Source: Carnobacterium funditum DSM 5970 (GTDB lineage: Bacteria > Bacillota > Bacilli > Lactobacillales > Carnobacteriaceae). From it: a stretch of 64,000 nt of DNA. The translations under genes were made by a program, and so were the position numbers. Under the pieces are notes generated by a model. The model made no database searches and was not told where the DNA came from. It saw nothing but the letters and a program-made list of their open reading frames with translations. Location: positions 1 to 64,000 of the forward strand of contig NZ_JQLL01000001.1 of assembly GCF_000744185.1 (NCBI RefSeq). Direction: 5' to 3'. Numbering within the stretch: the stretch's first letter is position 1; every line of letters begins with the position of its first letter. Of this stretch, positions 24,563 to 43,532 are shown piece by piece.

Positions 24563-24589
24563 TTGACATCTACAGTATTTCGGTATAAT
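24563..24589 (+). promoter_or_regulatory. Riboflavin operon promoter
   Basis: TTGACA (24563-24568) and TATAAT (24584-24589) with a short 15-base spacer, about 25 bases before the first FMN riboswitch. No second clear promoter is seen before the second riboswitch. Confidence 0.65.
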
Positions 24590-24612
24590 CTAAACAGTAT
24601 AAAAATAAAATA

Positions 24613-24719
24613 GTCTTCAGGGCAGGGTGCAAGTCCCTACCGGTGGTAAAGCCCACGAGCCGTAAGGCAGATTCGGTTAGATTCCGAAGCCGACAGTTAT
24701 AGTCTGGATGAGAGAAGAC
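24613..24719 (+). ncRNA. FMN riboswitch, first copy
   Basis: A 107-nt RFN element. P1 pairs GTCTTC with GAAGAC. Conserved blocks AGGGCAGGGTGCAAGTCCCTA, CCGGTGGTAAAGCCCACGAG and CGGTTAGATTCCGAAGCCGA are all present, each trimmed here to the key part, followed by CAGTTATAGTCTGGATG. It binds flavin mononucleotide and then favours termination. Its own terminator lies at 24823-24854. It differs from the second copy by only a few bases, mainly in one stem (GGGTGCAAGTCCC against GGGCGTAAATCCC). Confidence 0.97.
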
Positions 24720-24822
24720 AAAGTGATTGCAAAAAAACTACGATAACTTTAATCTTATTTAGGGTGAATAGAAATCATGAGTTTATAAAGCAATGTTAGA
24801 ATAGTCTTATTTGACTGTAAGT

Positions 24823-24854
24823 AAAGCCCTGGATGTAAAATCTAGGGCTTTTTT
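24823..24854 (+). terminator. Terminator of the first FMN riboswitch
   Basis: AAAGCCCTGGAT pairs with ATCTAGGGCTTT around GTAAA, followed by TTTT. It lies about 100 bases after the aptamer, as expected for an expression platform. Confidence 0.9.
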
Positions 24855-24878
24855 GTGTACTGTTTTAAAAATAGAATA

Positions 24879-24985
24879 GTCTTCAGGGCAGGGCGTAAAT
24901 CCCTACCGGTGGTAAAGCCCACGAGCCGCAAGGCAGATTCGGTTAGATTCCGAAGCCGACAGTTATAGTCTGGATGAGAGAAGAC
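24879..24985 (+). ncRNA. FMN riboswitch, second copy in tandem
   Basis: A second complete 107-nt RFN element, 266 bases after the first and with all conserved blocks intact. The duplicated stretch includes the bases just before the aptamer (AAAAATA-AATAGTCTTCAGGG). The region between aptamer and terminator is different in sequence from copy one, with CGAATACA (25008 region) able to pair with TGTATTCG (25026 region). Its own terminator is at 25063-25094 and ribD follows. Confidence 0.97.
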
Positions 24986-25062
24986 AGCGTTTAAAGAGTT
25001 CAAAAGCAACCGAATACATAGTATGCGGTCTTATTTGCTGATCTCTGTATTCGAAAAACGAC

Positions 25063-25094
25063 AAAACCCTGAGGAAAAATTCCTTGGGTTTTTT
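25063..25094 (+). terminator. Terminator of the second FMN riboswitch
   Basis: AAAACCCTGAGGA pairs with TCCTTGGGTTTT around AAAAT, followed by a T run. It ends 35 bases before the ribD start. Confidence 0.9.
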
Positions 25095-25128
25095 ATTTTT
25101 GATTTTATTTTTGAATGGAGTGAGAACA

Positions 25129-26217
25129 GTGGATGAATTTTATATGAGGATGGCATTAGAGTTAGCAAGAAAAGGCAAAGGGTGGACGGCACCAAATCCT
25201 TTAGTGGGTGCTGTGATTGTTAAAGCTGGAAGAGTTATTGGACAAGGATACCACGAGGAATATGGTCAACCACACGCAGAAGTAAAGGCTATTGCATCAG
25301 CAAGCGAATGCGTTTCAGGGGCAACTTTATATGTCACATTAGAACCCTGTTCACATTTTGGTAAAACCCCTCCCTGTTCTGACTTATTAATAGAAAAAAA
25401 CATCAAACGAGTCGTTATTGGAATAACCGATCCAAATCCATTAGTTGCTGGAAAAGGAATTGAAAGGCTACGTAACAACGGCATTGAAGTTATTACCGGT
25501 GTGTTAGAAGTAGAAATCCAACAATTGAATGAGGTTTTTATAAAATACATTGTCACTAAAGAACCTTTTGTGGTGATGAAGAGTGCGATGTCACTAGACG
25601 GCAAAACGGCGACAGTAACGGGTGAATCTCAGTGGATTTCTAGTAGAACAGCTAGAGAACAGGTTCATGGCTTACGACATGAATTAGCTGGAATTATGGT
25701 AGGCATTGAAACCATCATCAGAGATAACCCACAATTAACTTCTAGAACGCCAAATAGCAAAAATCCTATTAGAATTGTTGTGGATAGTCAACTAAGAATT
25801 CCAATGGTATCTACTGTTTTACATTATCAGGATAAAGCTAAAACAATTATCGCAACGACTAAAAGAGCTAGTAGAGAAAAACTGAAAACGTTAAAGAAAA
25901 TGGGTATTGAAGTTATTGTGACCAAAGAGCAATTTGGAAGAGTTAATTTGCGTGAATTAATGAGGAGATTAGGCGCTAGGGGTATCGATAGTATTCTATT
26001 AGAAGGTGGAGCTACTTTGAATTTTTCAGCTTTAAAAGAAGGCATTGTCGACAAAGTACAAGTCTATATTTCACCAAAAATCATCGGAGGAAAAAATGCT
26101 AAAACTGCTGTTGAAGGAGAAGGCGTTTTGTCGTTAAAAAGTGCTTTTCAAATAAAGCGACTAAAAACGGTGATGGTAGGTGAGGATCTTTTTGTAGAAG
26201 GATATATTGATAAATAA
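25129..26217 (+). CDS. ribD: Bifunctional riboflavin biosynthesis deaminase/reductase
   Basis: 362 residues. The N-terminal deaminase (about 1-145) has the zinc site QPHAEVKAI and EPCSHFGKTPPCSDLL, and TAPNPLVGAVIV near the start. The C-terminal reductase (about 150-360) has MKSAMSLDGKTAT, SRTAREQVHGLRH and ILLEGGATLNFS. It carries out the second and third steps from GTP in riboflavin synthesis. The frame is open to 25084, inside the terminator, so a later start is needed: GTG 25129 has GGAG eight bases before it and matches the family N-terminus (VDEFYM). First gene of the rib operon, under two FMN riboswitches. Confidence 0.93.
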   Translation: MDEFYMRMALELARKGKGWTAPNPLVGAVIVKAGRVIGQGYHEEYGQPHAEVKAIASASECVSGATLYVTLEPCSHFGKTPPCSDLLIEKNIKRVVIGITDPNPLVAGKGIERLRNNGIEVITGVLEVEIQQLNEVFIKYIVTKEPFVVMKSAMSLDGKTATVTGESQWISSRTAREQVHGLRHELAGIMVGIETIIRDNPQLTSRTPNSKNPIRIVVDSQLRIPMVSTVLHYQDKAKTIIATTKRASREKLKTLKKMGIEVIVTKEQFGRVNLRELMRRLGARGIDSILLEGGATLNFSALKEGIVDKVQVYISPKIIGGKNAKTAVEGEGVLSLKSAFQIKRLKTVMVGEDLFVEGYIDK

Positions 26218-26244: not shown

Positions 26245-26898
26245 ATGTTTACTGGAATTATTGAAGAGATAGGAACAATCAAATCAATCAAAAAAGGTGA
26301 AAAGAGTTCAGTTCTTAAAATAAAAGGTCAAAAAGTGTTGCAAGGAACACGTATTGGAGATAGTATCTCGACTAATGGAATTTGTTTGACAGTGACGAAA
26401 ATAGAAAAAGATTCTTTTGAAGCAGACGTTATGTCGGAGTCTTTGAAAAGGACGAATATTGGGGAATTGATTTCTGGAAGCTACGTTAATTTAGAACGGG
26501 CACTAAGCCTTGAGACACGTCTTGGTGGGCATATTGTCAATGGTCACATTGATGGAATAGGAAAGATAAAGGAATTCAGGCGTGATGATAATGCCGTTTG
26601 GATTACGGTTGAAACAACTCTTGATTTATTAAGGTACATTATTGAAAAAGGTTCGATAGCTATTGATGGCGTTAGTTTGACAGTCGTGACTGTGGACGAC
26701 CAGTCTTTCCAAGTCTCAATTATTCCGCACACGGGTGAAGAAACGGGACTTTTATCTAAGCAACCCGGAGATACTGTAAATCTTGAATGCGATATGATTG
26801 GAAAATATGTCGAGAAGCTATTAAGACTCGATTCGAAAGAGCGGACTCAAGAGAATCATGTAACGCAAGGATTTTTAAAAGAGAATGGGTTCTTTTAG
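26245..26898 (+). CDS. ribE: Riboflavin synthase alpha subunit
   Basis: 217 residues formed of two lumazine-binding repeats, the first starting MFTGIIEEIG and the second LGGHIVNGHIDGIGKI (about 92-107). Catalytic-site features are SISTNGICLTV (about 43) and GSIAIDGVSLTV (about 136-147). It dismutates two 6,7-dimethyl-8-ribityllumazine molecules to riboflavin and the pyrimidine precursor. GGAGG lies before the ATG. It sits between ribD and ribBA with short gaps, the classical Firmicutes order. Confidence 0.95.
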   Translation: MFTGIIEEIGTIKSIKKGEKSSVLKIKGQKVLQGTRIGDSISTNGICLTVTKIEKDSFEADVMSESLKRTNIGELISGSYVNLERALSLETRLGGHIVNGHIDGIGKIKEFRRDDNAVWITVETTLDLLRYIIEKGSIAIDGVSLTVVTVDDQSFQVSIIPHTGEETGLLSKQPGDTVNLECDMIGKYVEKLLRLDSKERTQENHVTQGFLKENGFF

Positions 26899-26916: not shown

Positions 26917-28110
26917 ATGTTTAATACAATTGAAGAATTATTGACTGATTTGAGAGCTGGAAAAAATATTTTATTAATAGATGATGAAGATAGAGAAAAC
27001 GAAGGAGATATTATTTGCGCTGCTGAATTCGCTACTACAGATAATGTGAATTTTATGGCTAGCCATGCCAAAGGCTTAATTTGTATGCCGATGACTAAAG
27101 CCTATACCAAGAAGTTACTATTGCCACAAATGATTCAAGACAATACAGATAATCACAAAACAGCTTTTACCGTTTCGGTGGATTATGTAGATACAACAAC
27201 TGGGATTTCGGCGGCGGAAAGGTCATTGACGGCAATGACATTAGTTTCTGATGATGCAAAACCAGCAGACTTTAGAAGGCCGGGTCATATGTTCCCGTTA
27301 GAAGCAGTTGATGGAGGAGTTTTAGCCAGAAATGGGCATACAGAAGCTACCGTTGATTTAATGCGTTTAGCAGGCTTAAAACCGGTTGGATTATGTTGCG
27401 AAATCATAAAAGAGGACGGAACGATGGCCAGGAGAAATGATTTATTGGATTTGGCCAAAGAGCATAAGTTGAAAATAGGGACAATTGCTGATTTGATTGA
27501 ATACCGTAAAACCAAAGAACAGGTTATCTTTAGACAATCTAAAGCATTCTTACCAACCAAATATGGCGATTTTGAGATTTATGCTTATGAACATGCTATC
27601 ACTGGAGAACACCATGTCGCTTTAATTATGGGAGAGATTAGTGATGGAAAACCAGTATTGTGTCGTATCCATTCTGAATGCTTGACAGGTGATGTATTTG
27701 GTTCTAAGAAATGCGACTGTGGTCAACAACTGGATACAGCAATGAAACAGATTTCTGACGAAGGTCGTGGTATTTTATTGTACATGCGTCAAGAAGGTCG
27801 TGGCATCGGTCTAGTTAATAAAATAAGAGCCTACGCTCTTCAAGATCAAGGACACAACACCATTGAAGCTAATTTAGCACTTGGCTTTCCAGCAGATTTA
27901 CGGGAGTACTATGAATGCAAACAAATTTTTGATGATTTGGGTGTTTCTCAACTACGTCTAATGACCAATAATCCACTGAAAGTGGAAAGCATGAATAAAT
28001 ATGGTTTAAATATCGTGGAAAGAATTTCACTTCAAATGGAGCCTTATATGGAAGACAAGGCCTATCTAAAAACTAAGCAAGAAGAAATGAAGCATTATTT
28101 AAACTACTAA
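26917..28110 (+). CDS. ribBA: Bifunctional DHBP synthase / GTP cyclohydrolase II
   Basis: 397 residues. The N-terminal 3,4-dihydroxy-2-butanone 4-phosphate synthase (about 1-200) has DDEDRENEGD (metal site) and RNGHTEATVDLMRLAG. The C-terminal GTP cyclohydrolase II (about 205-397) has the zinc motif SECLTGDVFGSKKCDCG and RQEGRGIGLVNKI. It supplies both starting compounds for riboflavin, from ribulose 5-phosphate and GTP. All catalytic motifs are intact. Third gene of the operon, 18 bases after ribE. Confidence 0.95.
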   Translation: MFNTIEELLTDLRAGKNILLIDDEDRENEGDIICAAEFATTDNVNFMASHAKGLICMPMTKAYTKKLLLPQMIQDNTDNHKTAFTVSVDYVDTTTGISAAERSLTAMTLVSDDAKPADFRRPGHMFPLEAVDGGVLARNGHTEATVDLMRLAGLKPVGLCCEIIKEDGTMARRNDLLDLAKEHKLKIGTIADLIEYRKTKEQVIFRQSKAFLPTKYGDFEIYAYEHAITGEHHVALIMGEISDGKPVLCRIHSECLTGDVFGSKKCDCGQQLDTAMKQISDEGRGILLYMRQEGRGIGLVNKIRAYALQDQGHNTIEANLALGFPADLREYYECKQIFDDLGVSQLRLMTNNPLKVESMNKYGLNIVERISLQMEPYMEDKAYLKTKQEEMKHYLNY

Positions 28111-28158: not shown

Positions 28159-28620
28159 ATGAACGTATTCGAAGGACAATTAATTGCAAAAGATTTAAAA
28201 GTTGGTATTGTAATTGCACGCTTTAATGAATTTATTGGATCAAAATTATTAAGTGGAGCAGTGGATGGCTTGAAAAGACACGGAATGTTAGAAGAGGAAA
28301 TTACTATTGCGTGGGTACCAGGTGCTTATGAAATTCCGTTAGTTGCACAAAAAATGGCGAATTCAGGGAATTATGATGCGATTATTACGTTAGGTGCTGT
28401 AATCAAAGGAGCTACATCACATTACGATTATGTGTGTTCAGAAGTTTCAAAAGGTGTGGCTACGGCATCAATGAATACAGGTTTACCAATAATATTTGGT
28501 GTTTTAACAACAGACAATATTGAGCAAGCAATTGAACGCGCGGGTACCAAATCTGGGAATAAAGGATATGAAGCAGCAGTTTCAGCCATTGAGATGGCTA
28601 ACCTACTGAAAGTCATGTAA
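28159..28620 (+). CDS. ribH: 6,7-dimethyl-8-ribityllumazine synthase
   Basis: 153 residues, normal length. It has [17 protein letters not shown] at the N-terminus, [16 protein letters not shown] (about 55-70), [14 protein letters not shown] with the catalytic histidine (about 79-92), and [16 protein letters not shown]. It condenses the pyrimidine intermediate with dihydroxybutanone phosphate and assembles into icosahedral capsids in the cytoplasm. GGAGG lies before the ATG. The HAD gene starts nine bases after its stop. Confidence 0.95.
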
Positions 28621-28629
28621 GGTCTAGTT

Positions 28630-29295
28630 ATGGATAAATCAAGATTAAAGAATAGTCGAACTATTATTTTTGATTACGACGGCACTTTACATGATAGTAC
28701 GCTAAATTATATTACCGCCTTTAAAAAAGCTTATAATTATTTGATGGAAAATCAAAAAGCTGTCCCAAAAGACTGGCAAGATGAGGAAATCACTAAGTGG
28801 TTAGGCTATAACAGTGAAGAGATGTGGAAAAACTTTATGCCAGATTTGTCTAAAGAATACCAGATTGCAGCTTCAAAAATAATAGGAAAAATACTATTAG
28901 AAAAAGTTCTCTCAAAAGAAGCGATACTTTATCCAGAAGCACTAAAAACGTTAACTTACTTAAAAGGTAAGGGATATAAGCTTATCTTTTTAAGTAATTG
29001 TAGCCAGACATACATGAAAGCACATCAGCAGACTTTTCAATTGACTCGTTACTTTGATGAAATGTACTGTACAGAACAAGTTGGTTTTATTCCCAAACAC
29101 AGGATATTTCCCTTAGTTAAAAGTCAGTACCAAGAAGAATGTCTGATTGTTGGTGATCGCATCCATGATTTAGAGATTGGCCACTATCATAATTTGGTTA
29201 CCATAGGTTGCAATTATGGATTCGGAACAGAAGAAGAAATGCAAAAATCAGATATAAGAATAAATTGTATCCGAGAGCTACAAGAAATTCTATAG
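28630..29295 (+). CDS. HAD-superfamily phosphatase in the riboflavin operon
   Basis: 221 residues of the HAD IA (phosphoglycolate phosphatase-like) type. Motif I is FDYDGTLHDS (about 14-23), motif II LIFLSNCS (about 118-125), motif III a lysine in FIPKHR, and motif IV LIVGDRIHDLEIG (about 174-186). It begins nine bases after ribH and ends at the operon terminator, so it is co-transcribed with the riboflavin genes. Riboflavin synthesis needs a phosphatase for 5-amino-6-ribitylaminouracil 5'-phosphate, done in B. subtilis by HAD enzymes encoded elsewhere. A role in that step is a sound but unproven inference; a general sugar-phosphate phosphatase is the alternative. Confidence 0.8.
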   Translation: MDKSRLKNSRTIIFDYDGTLHDSTLNYITAFKKAYNYLMENQKAVPKDWQDEEITKWLGYNSEEMWKNFMPDLSKEYQIAASKIIGKILLEKVLSKEAILYPEALKTLTYLKGKGYKLIFLSNCSQTYMKAHQQTFQLTRYFDEMYCTEQVGFIPKHRIFPLVKSQYQEECLIVGDRIHDLEIGHYHNLVTIGCNYGFGTEEEMQKSDIRINCIRELQEIL

Positions 29296-41299: not shown

Positions 41300-42205
<906 letters not shown>

Positions 42206-42206
42206 A

Positions 42207-43532
42207 ATGTTAACAAACTCAAAAGCAGCAGCTTTAGGATTACAACATGTATTAGCTATGTACGCGGGAGCTATCTTGGTCCCTTTATTGATTGGTGGAG
42301 CTATTGGGTTCAACTCAGAACAAATGACGTATCTTGTATCAATCGATATTTTTATGTGTGGAGTCGCTACGTTATTGCAATTGTTTGTTAACCGCTATTT
42401 TGGAATTGGCTTGCCTGTAGTATTAGGTTGTGCTATGCAAGCTGTTTCTCCCTTAATTTTAATTGGAACAACAAAAAGTATTGGGGCTATGTACGGATCA
42501 ATCATAGCTTCAGGTATTTTTATTTTACTAATTGCTGGTCTGTTTTCAAAAATCAAACGATTTTTCCCACCGGTTGTAACGGGAACTGTTATCACTGTTA
42601 TTGGTCTGACACTTATACCAGTTGGGATTGAGAAGATGGGCGGTGGCATGAAAAGCGCAGCTGATTTTGGTTCTAGCAAGTATTTATTTCTAGCTTTCTT
42701 AACAGTGGCTATTATTTTAGGCATCCAATTGTTTGCTAAAGGCTTTATTCATTCATTAGCTATTATTATTGGTTTAATTATTGGAACAGTTGTTGGGTCA
42801 TTTATGGGACTTGTTAGTTTAGCGCCTGTAACAGAAGCTACTTGGTTTCATGTTCCGCAACCTTTTTATTTTGGAGCACCTATTTTTGAGTGGTCCTCTA
42901 TTCTAACAATGATTTTGATTTCAATTGTTAGTATGGTTGAATCTACAGGGGTATATTTTGCTCTTGGGGAAGTAACCGGCCAAACAATTGAAGAAGAACA
43001 ATTGAAAAAAGGGTATCGTGCAGAAGGATTGGCTATTATTTTAGGTGGTATTTTTAATACCTTCCCTTACACGGCTTTTTCACAAAATGTTGGCTTAGTT
43101 CAAATGTCGGGAATCCGGACACGCAAACCCATTTATTTTGCAGCAGGATTTTTAATGGTATTAGGACTAGTACCCAAAATTGGGGCATTTGCGACGATCA
43201 TTCCTGAACCTGTTTTAGGTGGGGCAATGATGATCTTGTTTGGAATGGTTGCTACTCAAGGAATTAAAATACTTAGTCGAGTTGACTTAAACCAAGACGG
43301 CAACTTAATGATTGTAGCTTTATCTCTTGGACTTGGTTTAGGAGTAACCGTTGTTCCAGAGCTATTTGCGAAATTACCAGCAGCTGTTCAAACCTTTACA
43401 GGAAACGGCATAGTTGTAACGAGTATCACAGCGATTGGTTTAAACATTCTTTCTCATCACGGACGCAAAAAAAAGAGCGCTGAAACAATGACAAAAGAAG
43501 AAGCACTGACAGATTTACCGGAGACCATTTAA
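42207..43532 (+). CDS. pbuX: Xanthine permease
   Basis: 441 residues with about 12-14 helices of the nucleobase:cation symporter-2 family. It has GLQHVLAMYAGAILVPLLIG at the N-terminus, GCAMQAVSPLI, and the family motif QNVGLVQMSGIRTR (about 290-303), with the Glu-containing MVESTGVYFALGEVTG before it. It imports xanthine by proton symport for Xpt. It is in the same riboswitch-controlled operon as xpt, as in B. subtilis. Confidence 0.93.
   Translation: MLTNSKAAALGLQHVLAMYAGAILVPLLIGGAIGFNSEQMTYLVSIDIFMCGVATLLQLFVNRYFGIGLPVVLGCAMQAVSPLILIGTTKSIGAMYGSIIASGIFILLIAGLFSKIKRFFPPVVTGTVITVIGLTLIPVGIEKMGGGMKSAADFGSSKYLFLAFLTVAIILGIQLFAKGFIHSLAIIIGLIIGTVVGSFMGLVSLAPVTEATWFHVPQPFYFGAPIFEWSSILTMILISIVSMVESTGVYFALGEVTGQTIEEEQLKKGYRAEGLAIILGGIFNTFPYTAFSQNVGLVQMSGIRTRKPIYFAAGFLMVLGLVPKIGAFATIIPEPVLGGAMMILFGMVATQGIKILSRVDLNQDGNLMIVALSLGLGLGVTVVPELFAKLPAAVQTFTGNGIVVTSITAIGLNILSHHGRKKKSAETMTKEEALTDLPETI

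Follow-up and report, generated by a model that had tools for sequence, protein, structure and literature searches.

Two FMN riboswitches in series before the rib operon of Carnobacterium funditum: platforms that follow position and aptamers apparently homogenised by gene conversion

Results

Two complete FMN riboswitches precede ribD

The window analysed here is a stretch of 64,000 nucleotides from Carnobacterium funditum DSM 5970, in which tandem FMN aptamers stand upstream of ribD-ribE-ribBA-ribH. The features of the leader and of the operon, given in window coordinates, are the following.

24563-24568 and 24584-24589, + strand: likely single promoter of the leader, TTGACA and TATAAT separated by a 15-nt spacer (12 of 12 letters)
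24613-24719, + strand: FMN aptamer 1, from P1 to P1 (Rfam match 24609-24723, 119.6 bits)
24616-24623, + strand: core strand 1, UUCAGGGC, expected in P1 and the core when FMN is bound and predicted to be the antiterminator strand when free
24720-24822, + strand: expression platform 1, which separates aptamer 1 from terminator 1 and is orthologous by position across the 10 tandem genomes
24823-24854, + strand: intrinsic terminator 1, stem 24823-24851 plus U-run, with the 5' arm AAGCCCTGGAT
24879-24985, + strand: FMN aptamer 2, from P1 to P1 (Rfam match 24875-24989, 115.8 bits)
24882-24889, + strand: core strand 2, UUCAGGGC, as predicted by folding of single modules
24986-25062, + strand: expression platform 2, which shows no relation to platform 1 and is likewise orthologous by position across the 10 tandem genomes
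25063-25094, + strand: intrinsic terminator 2, with the 5' arm AAAACCCTGAGGAA, core stem 25068-25088 and U-run 25089-25094
25129-26217, + strand: ribD (TIGR00326, 387.3 bits), with a GTG start placed from a ribosome-binding-like GGAG at 25117 and from the alignment of relatives
26245-26898, + strand: ribE, riboflavin synthase (family search)
26917-28110, + strand: ribBA (family search)
28159-28620, + strand: ribH, lumazine synthase (family search)

Both aptamers were recovered by cmscan with the Rfam family RF00050 (E values of 2.4e-27 for the first and 2.7e-26 for the second), far above its gathering score of 66.2, and neither matched any other family at gathering threshold. With their P1-to-P1 limits read by eye, the aptamers are 107 nt long each, lie 266 bases apart and differ at 4 positions. 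Two terminator-like hairpins were detected in the leader region (24823-24851 and 25068-25088), compared to a mean of 0.7 (s.d. 0.8) in shuffles of the same region. A previous sequence-only reading of this DNA had proposed two complete FMN riboswitches in series, each with its own terminator, with near-identical 107-nt aptamers 266 bases apart and with ribD coming only after both. The Rfam matches and the two hairpins bear this out, its coordinates and anatomy were right, and ribD is indeed found downstream of both modules, followed by ribE, ribBA and ribH.

Within the same genome, platforms 1 and 2 show an identity of 0.49, the value for shuffled sequence being 0.48 ± 0.03. Moreover, comparison of the rib leaders of relatives, as the sequence-only reading had proposed, revealed the same tandem arrangement in nine other genomes. 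The ten tandem genomes are G000 (the window), G004, G005, G007, G008, G010, G011 and G012, all from the window's family, and G213 and G265, from another family. As the platforms are unlike each other and the arrangement recurs in nine more genomes, we see no obvious duplication introduced by the assembly and reject a fresh copy of the first unit, in agreement with the earlier claim that the second unit is not a recent copy. A further claim, that only the aptamers are held the same, was right about the aptamers and too exclusive about the rest, as CCCTG is present in the terminator 5' arm in 20 of 20 platforms; in addition, part of the aptamer sameness looks like the product of gene conversion and not of conservation only (see below).

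A CTTATTT-like stretch was also seen by us in both platforms of the window (24800-24815 and 25028-25038, and also at about 24752-24760), and it occurs twice in platform 1 of most relatives. A second antiterminator formed by these stretches and the aptamer 3' end was considered and found unsupported, as this pairing had a mean of 0.31 versus 0.27 in dinucleotide-shuffled platforms and was at or below 0.05 in 6 of 21 modules.

A single promoter and the neighbouring genes

Seven of the 10 tandem genomes have the TTGACA element with the 15-nt spacing before module 1, and two have a 17-nt spacing; in G011, no promoter match above chance level was detected there. The 15-base spacer is unusually short, and it is conserved. 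A second promoter between the modules, which would generate two alternative leaders, is extremely improbable. A TTGACT-19-TAAAAT match is present between the modules of the window, but the best promoter-like match there scored 9.5, with the 95% value of shuffles at 10.0, and none of the 11 intermodule stretches from the ten genomes exceeded the 95% value of its own single-base shuffles. The sequence-only reading had singled out a promoter in this place as what would count against it; nothing beyond chance was found in the window or in its relatives.

Downstream of the operon, a gene for a HAD-type hydrolase (28630-29295) starts about 10 bases past ribH. Such a gene directly follows ribH in six of the ten tandem genomes (the window, G005, G007, G008, G010 and G012), and it was not found in the stretch fetched from G004, G011, G213 and G265. 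It may serve the phosphatase step of riboflavin synthesis, which we take to be a gap in the pathway. The genome of the window also carries a single FMN aptamer, which lies before a gene for an ECF-type transporter component that matches a riboflavin-transporter family of Pfam. Elsewhere in the window, a purine riboswitch aptamer (41372-41470, 75.8 bits) lies before two frames (41324-42205 and 42207-43532) that look, by eye, like genes for a purine phosphoribosyltransferase and a purine permease, respectively.

Each module is predicted to be an ordinary FMN OFF-switch

Single modules were folded up to the terminator 5' arm, and in these folds pairing of the arm displaces P1. The core strand paired with the terminator 5' arm in the minimum free energy structures of 17 of 17 modules from eight genomes, with 7-8 pairs, and the probability of this pairing was 0.99-1.00 in all 21 singly folded modules from the ten genomes. 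It persisted when the intervening platform was shuffled (average at least 0.94). The 5' arm of terminator 1, AAGCCCTGGAT, is identical in all ten genomes and its 3' arm is variable, which fits a 5' arm that has two partners.

The same pairing was surveyed in other Lactobacillales. Among 52 aptamers examined, 29 had a detected terminator, a set that includes 10 tandem modules of the window's lineage; the terminator finder was insensitive and missed the other 23, tandem modules of the window's lineage among them. Pairing at six or more positions was found in 26 of the 29, and 21 of the 29 had no better pairing window elsewhere in the aptamer. In some aptamers of this survey, a TTCGGGG core is accompanied by a CCCCG arm. 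As core:arm pairing is common outside the window's lineage, each module would thus be an ordinary FMN OFF-switch that acts by transcription termination.

According to this model, at low FMN the UUCAGGGC strand of each aptamer would pair with the 5' arm (CCCUG) of the terminator that follows it, and the polymerase would continue. Bound FMN would keep this strand within P1 and the core of the aptamer, the terminator would form and transcription would end. The polymerase would have to clear both checkpoints before reaching ribD, so the residual read-through of two checkpoints in series should be roughly the product of the two. When complete modules (aptamer plus whole terminator) were folded freely, P1 and the terminator were formed in the absence of ligand in the four modules looked at (4/4). 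This counts against the model: the ligand-free fold being already the terminated one, read-through would have to rest on co-transcriptional timing.

Distribution of the tandem arrangement

In the window's family, RibD was found above cut-off in 8 of 18 genomes, and exactly these eight carry two or three neighbouring FMN aptamers; they also have, as a rule, one further single FMN aptamer elsewhere. The other ten genomes of the family have one FMN aptamer each. All aptamer copies in the other tandem genomes score over the RF00050 gathering score. G007 corresponds to a Carnobacterium MAG and G010 to Carnobacterium jeotgali, whose leader contains three units, the platforms of the first two being nearly identical and the third corresponding to the usual platform 2.

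These data bear on the question of whether one module is a relic of duplication that has survived by chance and has no regulatory importance. Recombination between repeats can make copies cheaply, and the extra C. jeotgali unit, with a platform nearly identical to that of the first, could illustrate it. A repeat pair should be as easily deleted, yet loss was observed in none of the eight family genomes with RibD, and a full aptamer, an intact terminator and a core-complementary arm have been kept in both modules of all ten genomes despite the divergence of ribD and of the platforms, which makes a relic very unlikely.

The leaders of G213 and G265 are homologous two-switch leaders, and the proteins of their rib operons are 77-90% identical to those of the window. 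Finding such a leader and such identities in another family suggests horizontal transfer. The transferred leaders look mosaic. In both of them (L107 in G265 and L108 in G213), platform 1 and ribD group with G010 and G012, and platform 2 groups with G004, each with high support. Upstream of the G213 leader lies an open frame that by eye is Fic/Doc-type-like and may be a mark of a mobile context.

Tandem FMN aptamers before ribD were also detected in two distant genomes, G282 (L102, Lactobacillales) and G733 (L100, from another order-level group), with rib operon identities to the window of 35-50% and 45-70%, respectively; these are probably independent cases. G282 likewise combines nearly identical aptamers with different platforms.

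A looser DNA pattern, applied to an order-wide sample of 395 Lactobacillales genomes, detected 11 with a tandem, every one of which was confirmed with Rfam; in a class-wide sample, 2 of 398 genomes had one, both confirmed. These counts are lower bounds, as the survey patterns admit only spacings within a range of about 60 bases. The earlier statement that FMN riboswitches are usually single agrees with a tandem in at least 11 of the 395 Lactobacillales genomes. A separate pattern scan of genome contigs, which may leave out the window's own genome or near relatives, returned nine stretches. Among these, cmscan identified a tandem in two (L062, and L063 with three aptamers), one aptamer in six and none in L067; a more permissive rescan of the six one-aptamer stretches (L067 excluded) did not find a second aptamer.

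Platforms follow position and aptamers do not

Platforms at the same position have mean identities between genomes of 0.73 and 0.74, and the trees of ribD, platform 1 and platform 2 all split G000, G005 and G007 from the rest. The ribD tree was built without far outgroups, as these introduced long-branch distortion. For the aptamers, a tree with the first aptamers as a clade was rejected with the corrected-gap alignment (lnL lower by 20.8, AU p 5.5e-7) and also with MAFFT gaps (AU p 2.6e-4 and 1.1e-4). An early version of this test, carried out without the middle aptamer of C. jeotgali, gave an AU p of 9.45e-46, a value on which we do not lean. All four copies from G005 and G007 form one group (support 99/97); in the aptamer tree with corrected gaps, 12 of the 14 inner branches have weak support.

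Distances between the copies show the same conflict. Within a genome, the aptamers differ on average at 2.6 positions in the seven genomes that make up the two main clades, compared to 8.75 and 9.8 differences between aptamers at the same position across the two clades. The two aptamers of G004, G213 and G265 differ from each other at 6, 8 and 7 positions, respectively. The aptamer 3' end exists in two forms. The two forms are split between the first and the second aptamer in G004, G213 and G265; both copies are of the second-aptamer form in G000, G005 and G007 and of the first-aptamer form in G008, G010, G011 and G012, where the last aptamer retains one extra T in three of the four genomes.

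As the aptamers do not follow position while the platforms do, these patterns are best read as gene conversion between neighbouring aptamers in seven of the ten genomes, with little or none in the other three. The 3' ends would be explained most simply by one conversion in each direction, the two having occurred in separate lineages and one tract having left a visible end. A letter by which the G005 and G007 copies are united recurs in the single ribU-type aptamers, which are otherwise clearly distinct, so part of the tract may have been copied from these.

Strong purifying selection alone could also make aptamers alike without gene conversion. FMN aptamers are in general highly conserved, with few variable columns, some branches of the aptamer tree are weak, and one shared letter is found again in the ribU aptamers. 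Selection would not make neighbours share lineage-specific variants, and the clade of first aptamers was rejected under three alignments while the platforms follow position, so we consider this explanation unlikely. In the explanation that we consider likely, the tandem pair is ancestral in this Carnobacterium-like lineage, the platforms have diverged by position, and gene conversion has homogenised neighbouring aptamers in several lineages.

Whole-leader folds predict cross-pairing between modules

As both aptamers carry UUCAGGGC and both terminators a CCCUG arm, the strand of aptamer 1 could also antiterminate terminator 2. In folds of the whole leader up to arm 2, core 1 paired with arm 2 at 0.99-1.00 and core 2 with arm 2 at 0.00 in all ten genomes, and aptamer 2 was left intact in every one of them. 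Taken singly, the modules fold as independent switches; the cross-pairing predicted for the whole leader speaks against strict independence. When the two alternatives were enforced, the cross-paired state was lower than the in-module state by 3.2-7.6 kcal/mol in the ten genomes with the Turner 2004 parameters, and with Turner 1999 and Andronescu 2007 it was favoured by more than 1 kcal/mol in seven of ten genomes each. For the window, the differences were -3.5, -0.3 and -0.3 kcal/mol with Turner 2004, Turner 1999 and Andronescu 2007, respectively.

Strand exchange is thus allowed by the sequence, as far as these models go. Two interlocked switches, in which the second decision depends on the first, could use it as follows: once terminator 1 has been read through, its hairpin could form upstream of the elongating polymerase and release strand 1, and strand 1 would then license read-through of terminator 2. 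The whole-leader probabilities and the Turner 2004 energies, both consistent across the ten genomes, speak for such a route. We nevertheless regard it as unlikely, as the advantage depends on the parameter set (0.3 kcal/mol for the window with two of the three), folding 470 nt at equilibrium is weak evidence that takes no account of kinetics, tertiary structure or ligand, and complementarity between each core and each arm is an automatic consequence of repeating the module. An extended version, in which freed strand 1 captures arm 2, a leaked FMN-bound transcript is caught, and gene conversion keeps the sensors interchangeable with the platforms free to diverge, likewise appears improbable to us.

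Expected dose response

For identical, independent and saturating switches, simple arithmetic reduces the FMN span from 10 to 90% response from 81-fold with a single switch to 40-fold with a tandem. As the span narrows by no more than this, the tandem would be expected to bring more in depth of shut-off than in steepness. The sequence-only reading had described the pair as a two-input NOR gate; two switches in series were indeed found, but the name is loose, as both inputs are one ligand, and the published term is pseudo-cooperative. Boolean logic-gate tandems respond to different ligands, and here both aptamers are assigned by sequence to RF00050. Cooperative tandems of the glycine type have a shared expression platform, and here a terminator follows each aptamer. 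The leader does contain two features of the pseudo-cooperative class, namely at least two aptamers of the same class in one leader and an expression platform for each aptamer (two terminators, with core:arm pairing in each module).

The two aptamers might instead have unequal affinities and switch at different FMN levels, which would make the response graded instead of sharper. In aptamer 2 of the window, the P2 loop begins with C in place of U (24894), a substitution found in 3 of 60 distinct aptamers matched in the loci, two of which are the second aptamers of G000 (the window) and G004. We consider such a pair of thresholds unlikely, as U is present in both aptamers of the other eight tandem genomes.

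Discussion

The explanation that we favour, and consider likely, is that the leader contains two FMN OFF-switches in series with product-like read-through, descended from an ancestral pair whose aptamers have been homogenised by gene conversion. The outcome would be a deeper shut-off of the rib operon and a modestly sharper response, following the published pseudo-cooperative scheme.

Discussions of tandem switches for a single ligand usually centre on their effect on the dose response. In this case, the same two platforms can be traced by position through ten genomes and the sensors cannot, which provides something testable on how tandems persist; this evolutionary conflict between sensor and platform is the part worth a specialist's time. 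If gene conversion is the cause, tandem aptamers evolve in concert like other repeats, and the sameness of neighbouring aptamers would mislead when recent duplication, or functional need alone, is deduced from it. If strand exchange takes place, tandem riboswitches held to be independent would be coupled via a common core strand and the calculation of read-through would be altered. No paper on homogenisation or gene conversion of aptamers in tandem riboswitches was found in the open-licence literature, and the main text of a recent survey of contiguous FMN riboswitches (PMC12452182, Microb Genom 2025) does not contain the words "concerted", "gene conversion", "duplication" or "recombination".

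The tandem arrangement itself is already known and, being in print, is no oddity of the window's genome. That survey reports contiguous FMN riboswitches, 87% of them double and 13% triple, that precede ribE, ribB and ribH in Bacillota. Pseudo-cooperative tandem FMN riboswitches, 31 doublets and 4 triplets with a complete expression platform per aptamer, have been described previously (PMC9481103, RNA Biol 2022). They have, like the window locus, the same ligand twice and a platform for each aptamer, and we found no difference in kind. The word Carnobacterium is absent from the main text of that paper, and the 31 doublets may include the window locus or relatives of it.

Among other known systems, the single FMN termination switches of other Lactobacillales have the same aptamer and core:arm pairing as the window locus, in one copy only. 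Tandems other than glycine riboswitches are described as rare in the text of PMC2258182. Tandem TPP riboswitches, as described in PMC9481103 and PMC2258182, are independent one-ligand switches in series with a more digital response; they are likewise one-ligand devices in series, with another aptamer and before other genes. Glycine riboswitches consist of two aptamers and one platform (PMC6944388, PMC2258182), and it has been argued that one of the aptamers is prone to degrade. Both they and the window locus place two aptamers for one ligand in one leader. Unlike the glycine riboswitch, the window locus has a terminator for each aptamer, and its neighbouring aptamers appear to have been homogenised instead of one of them degrading.
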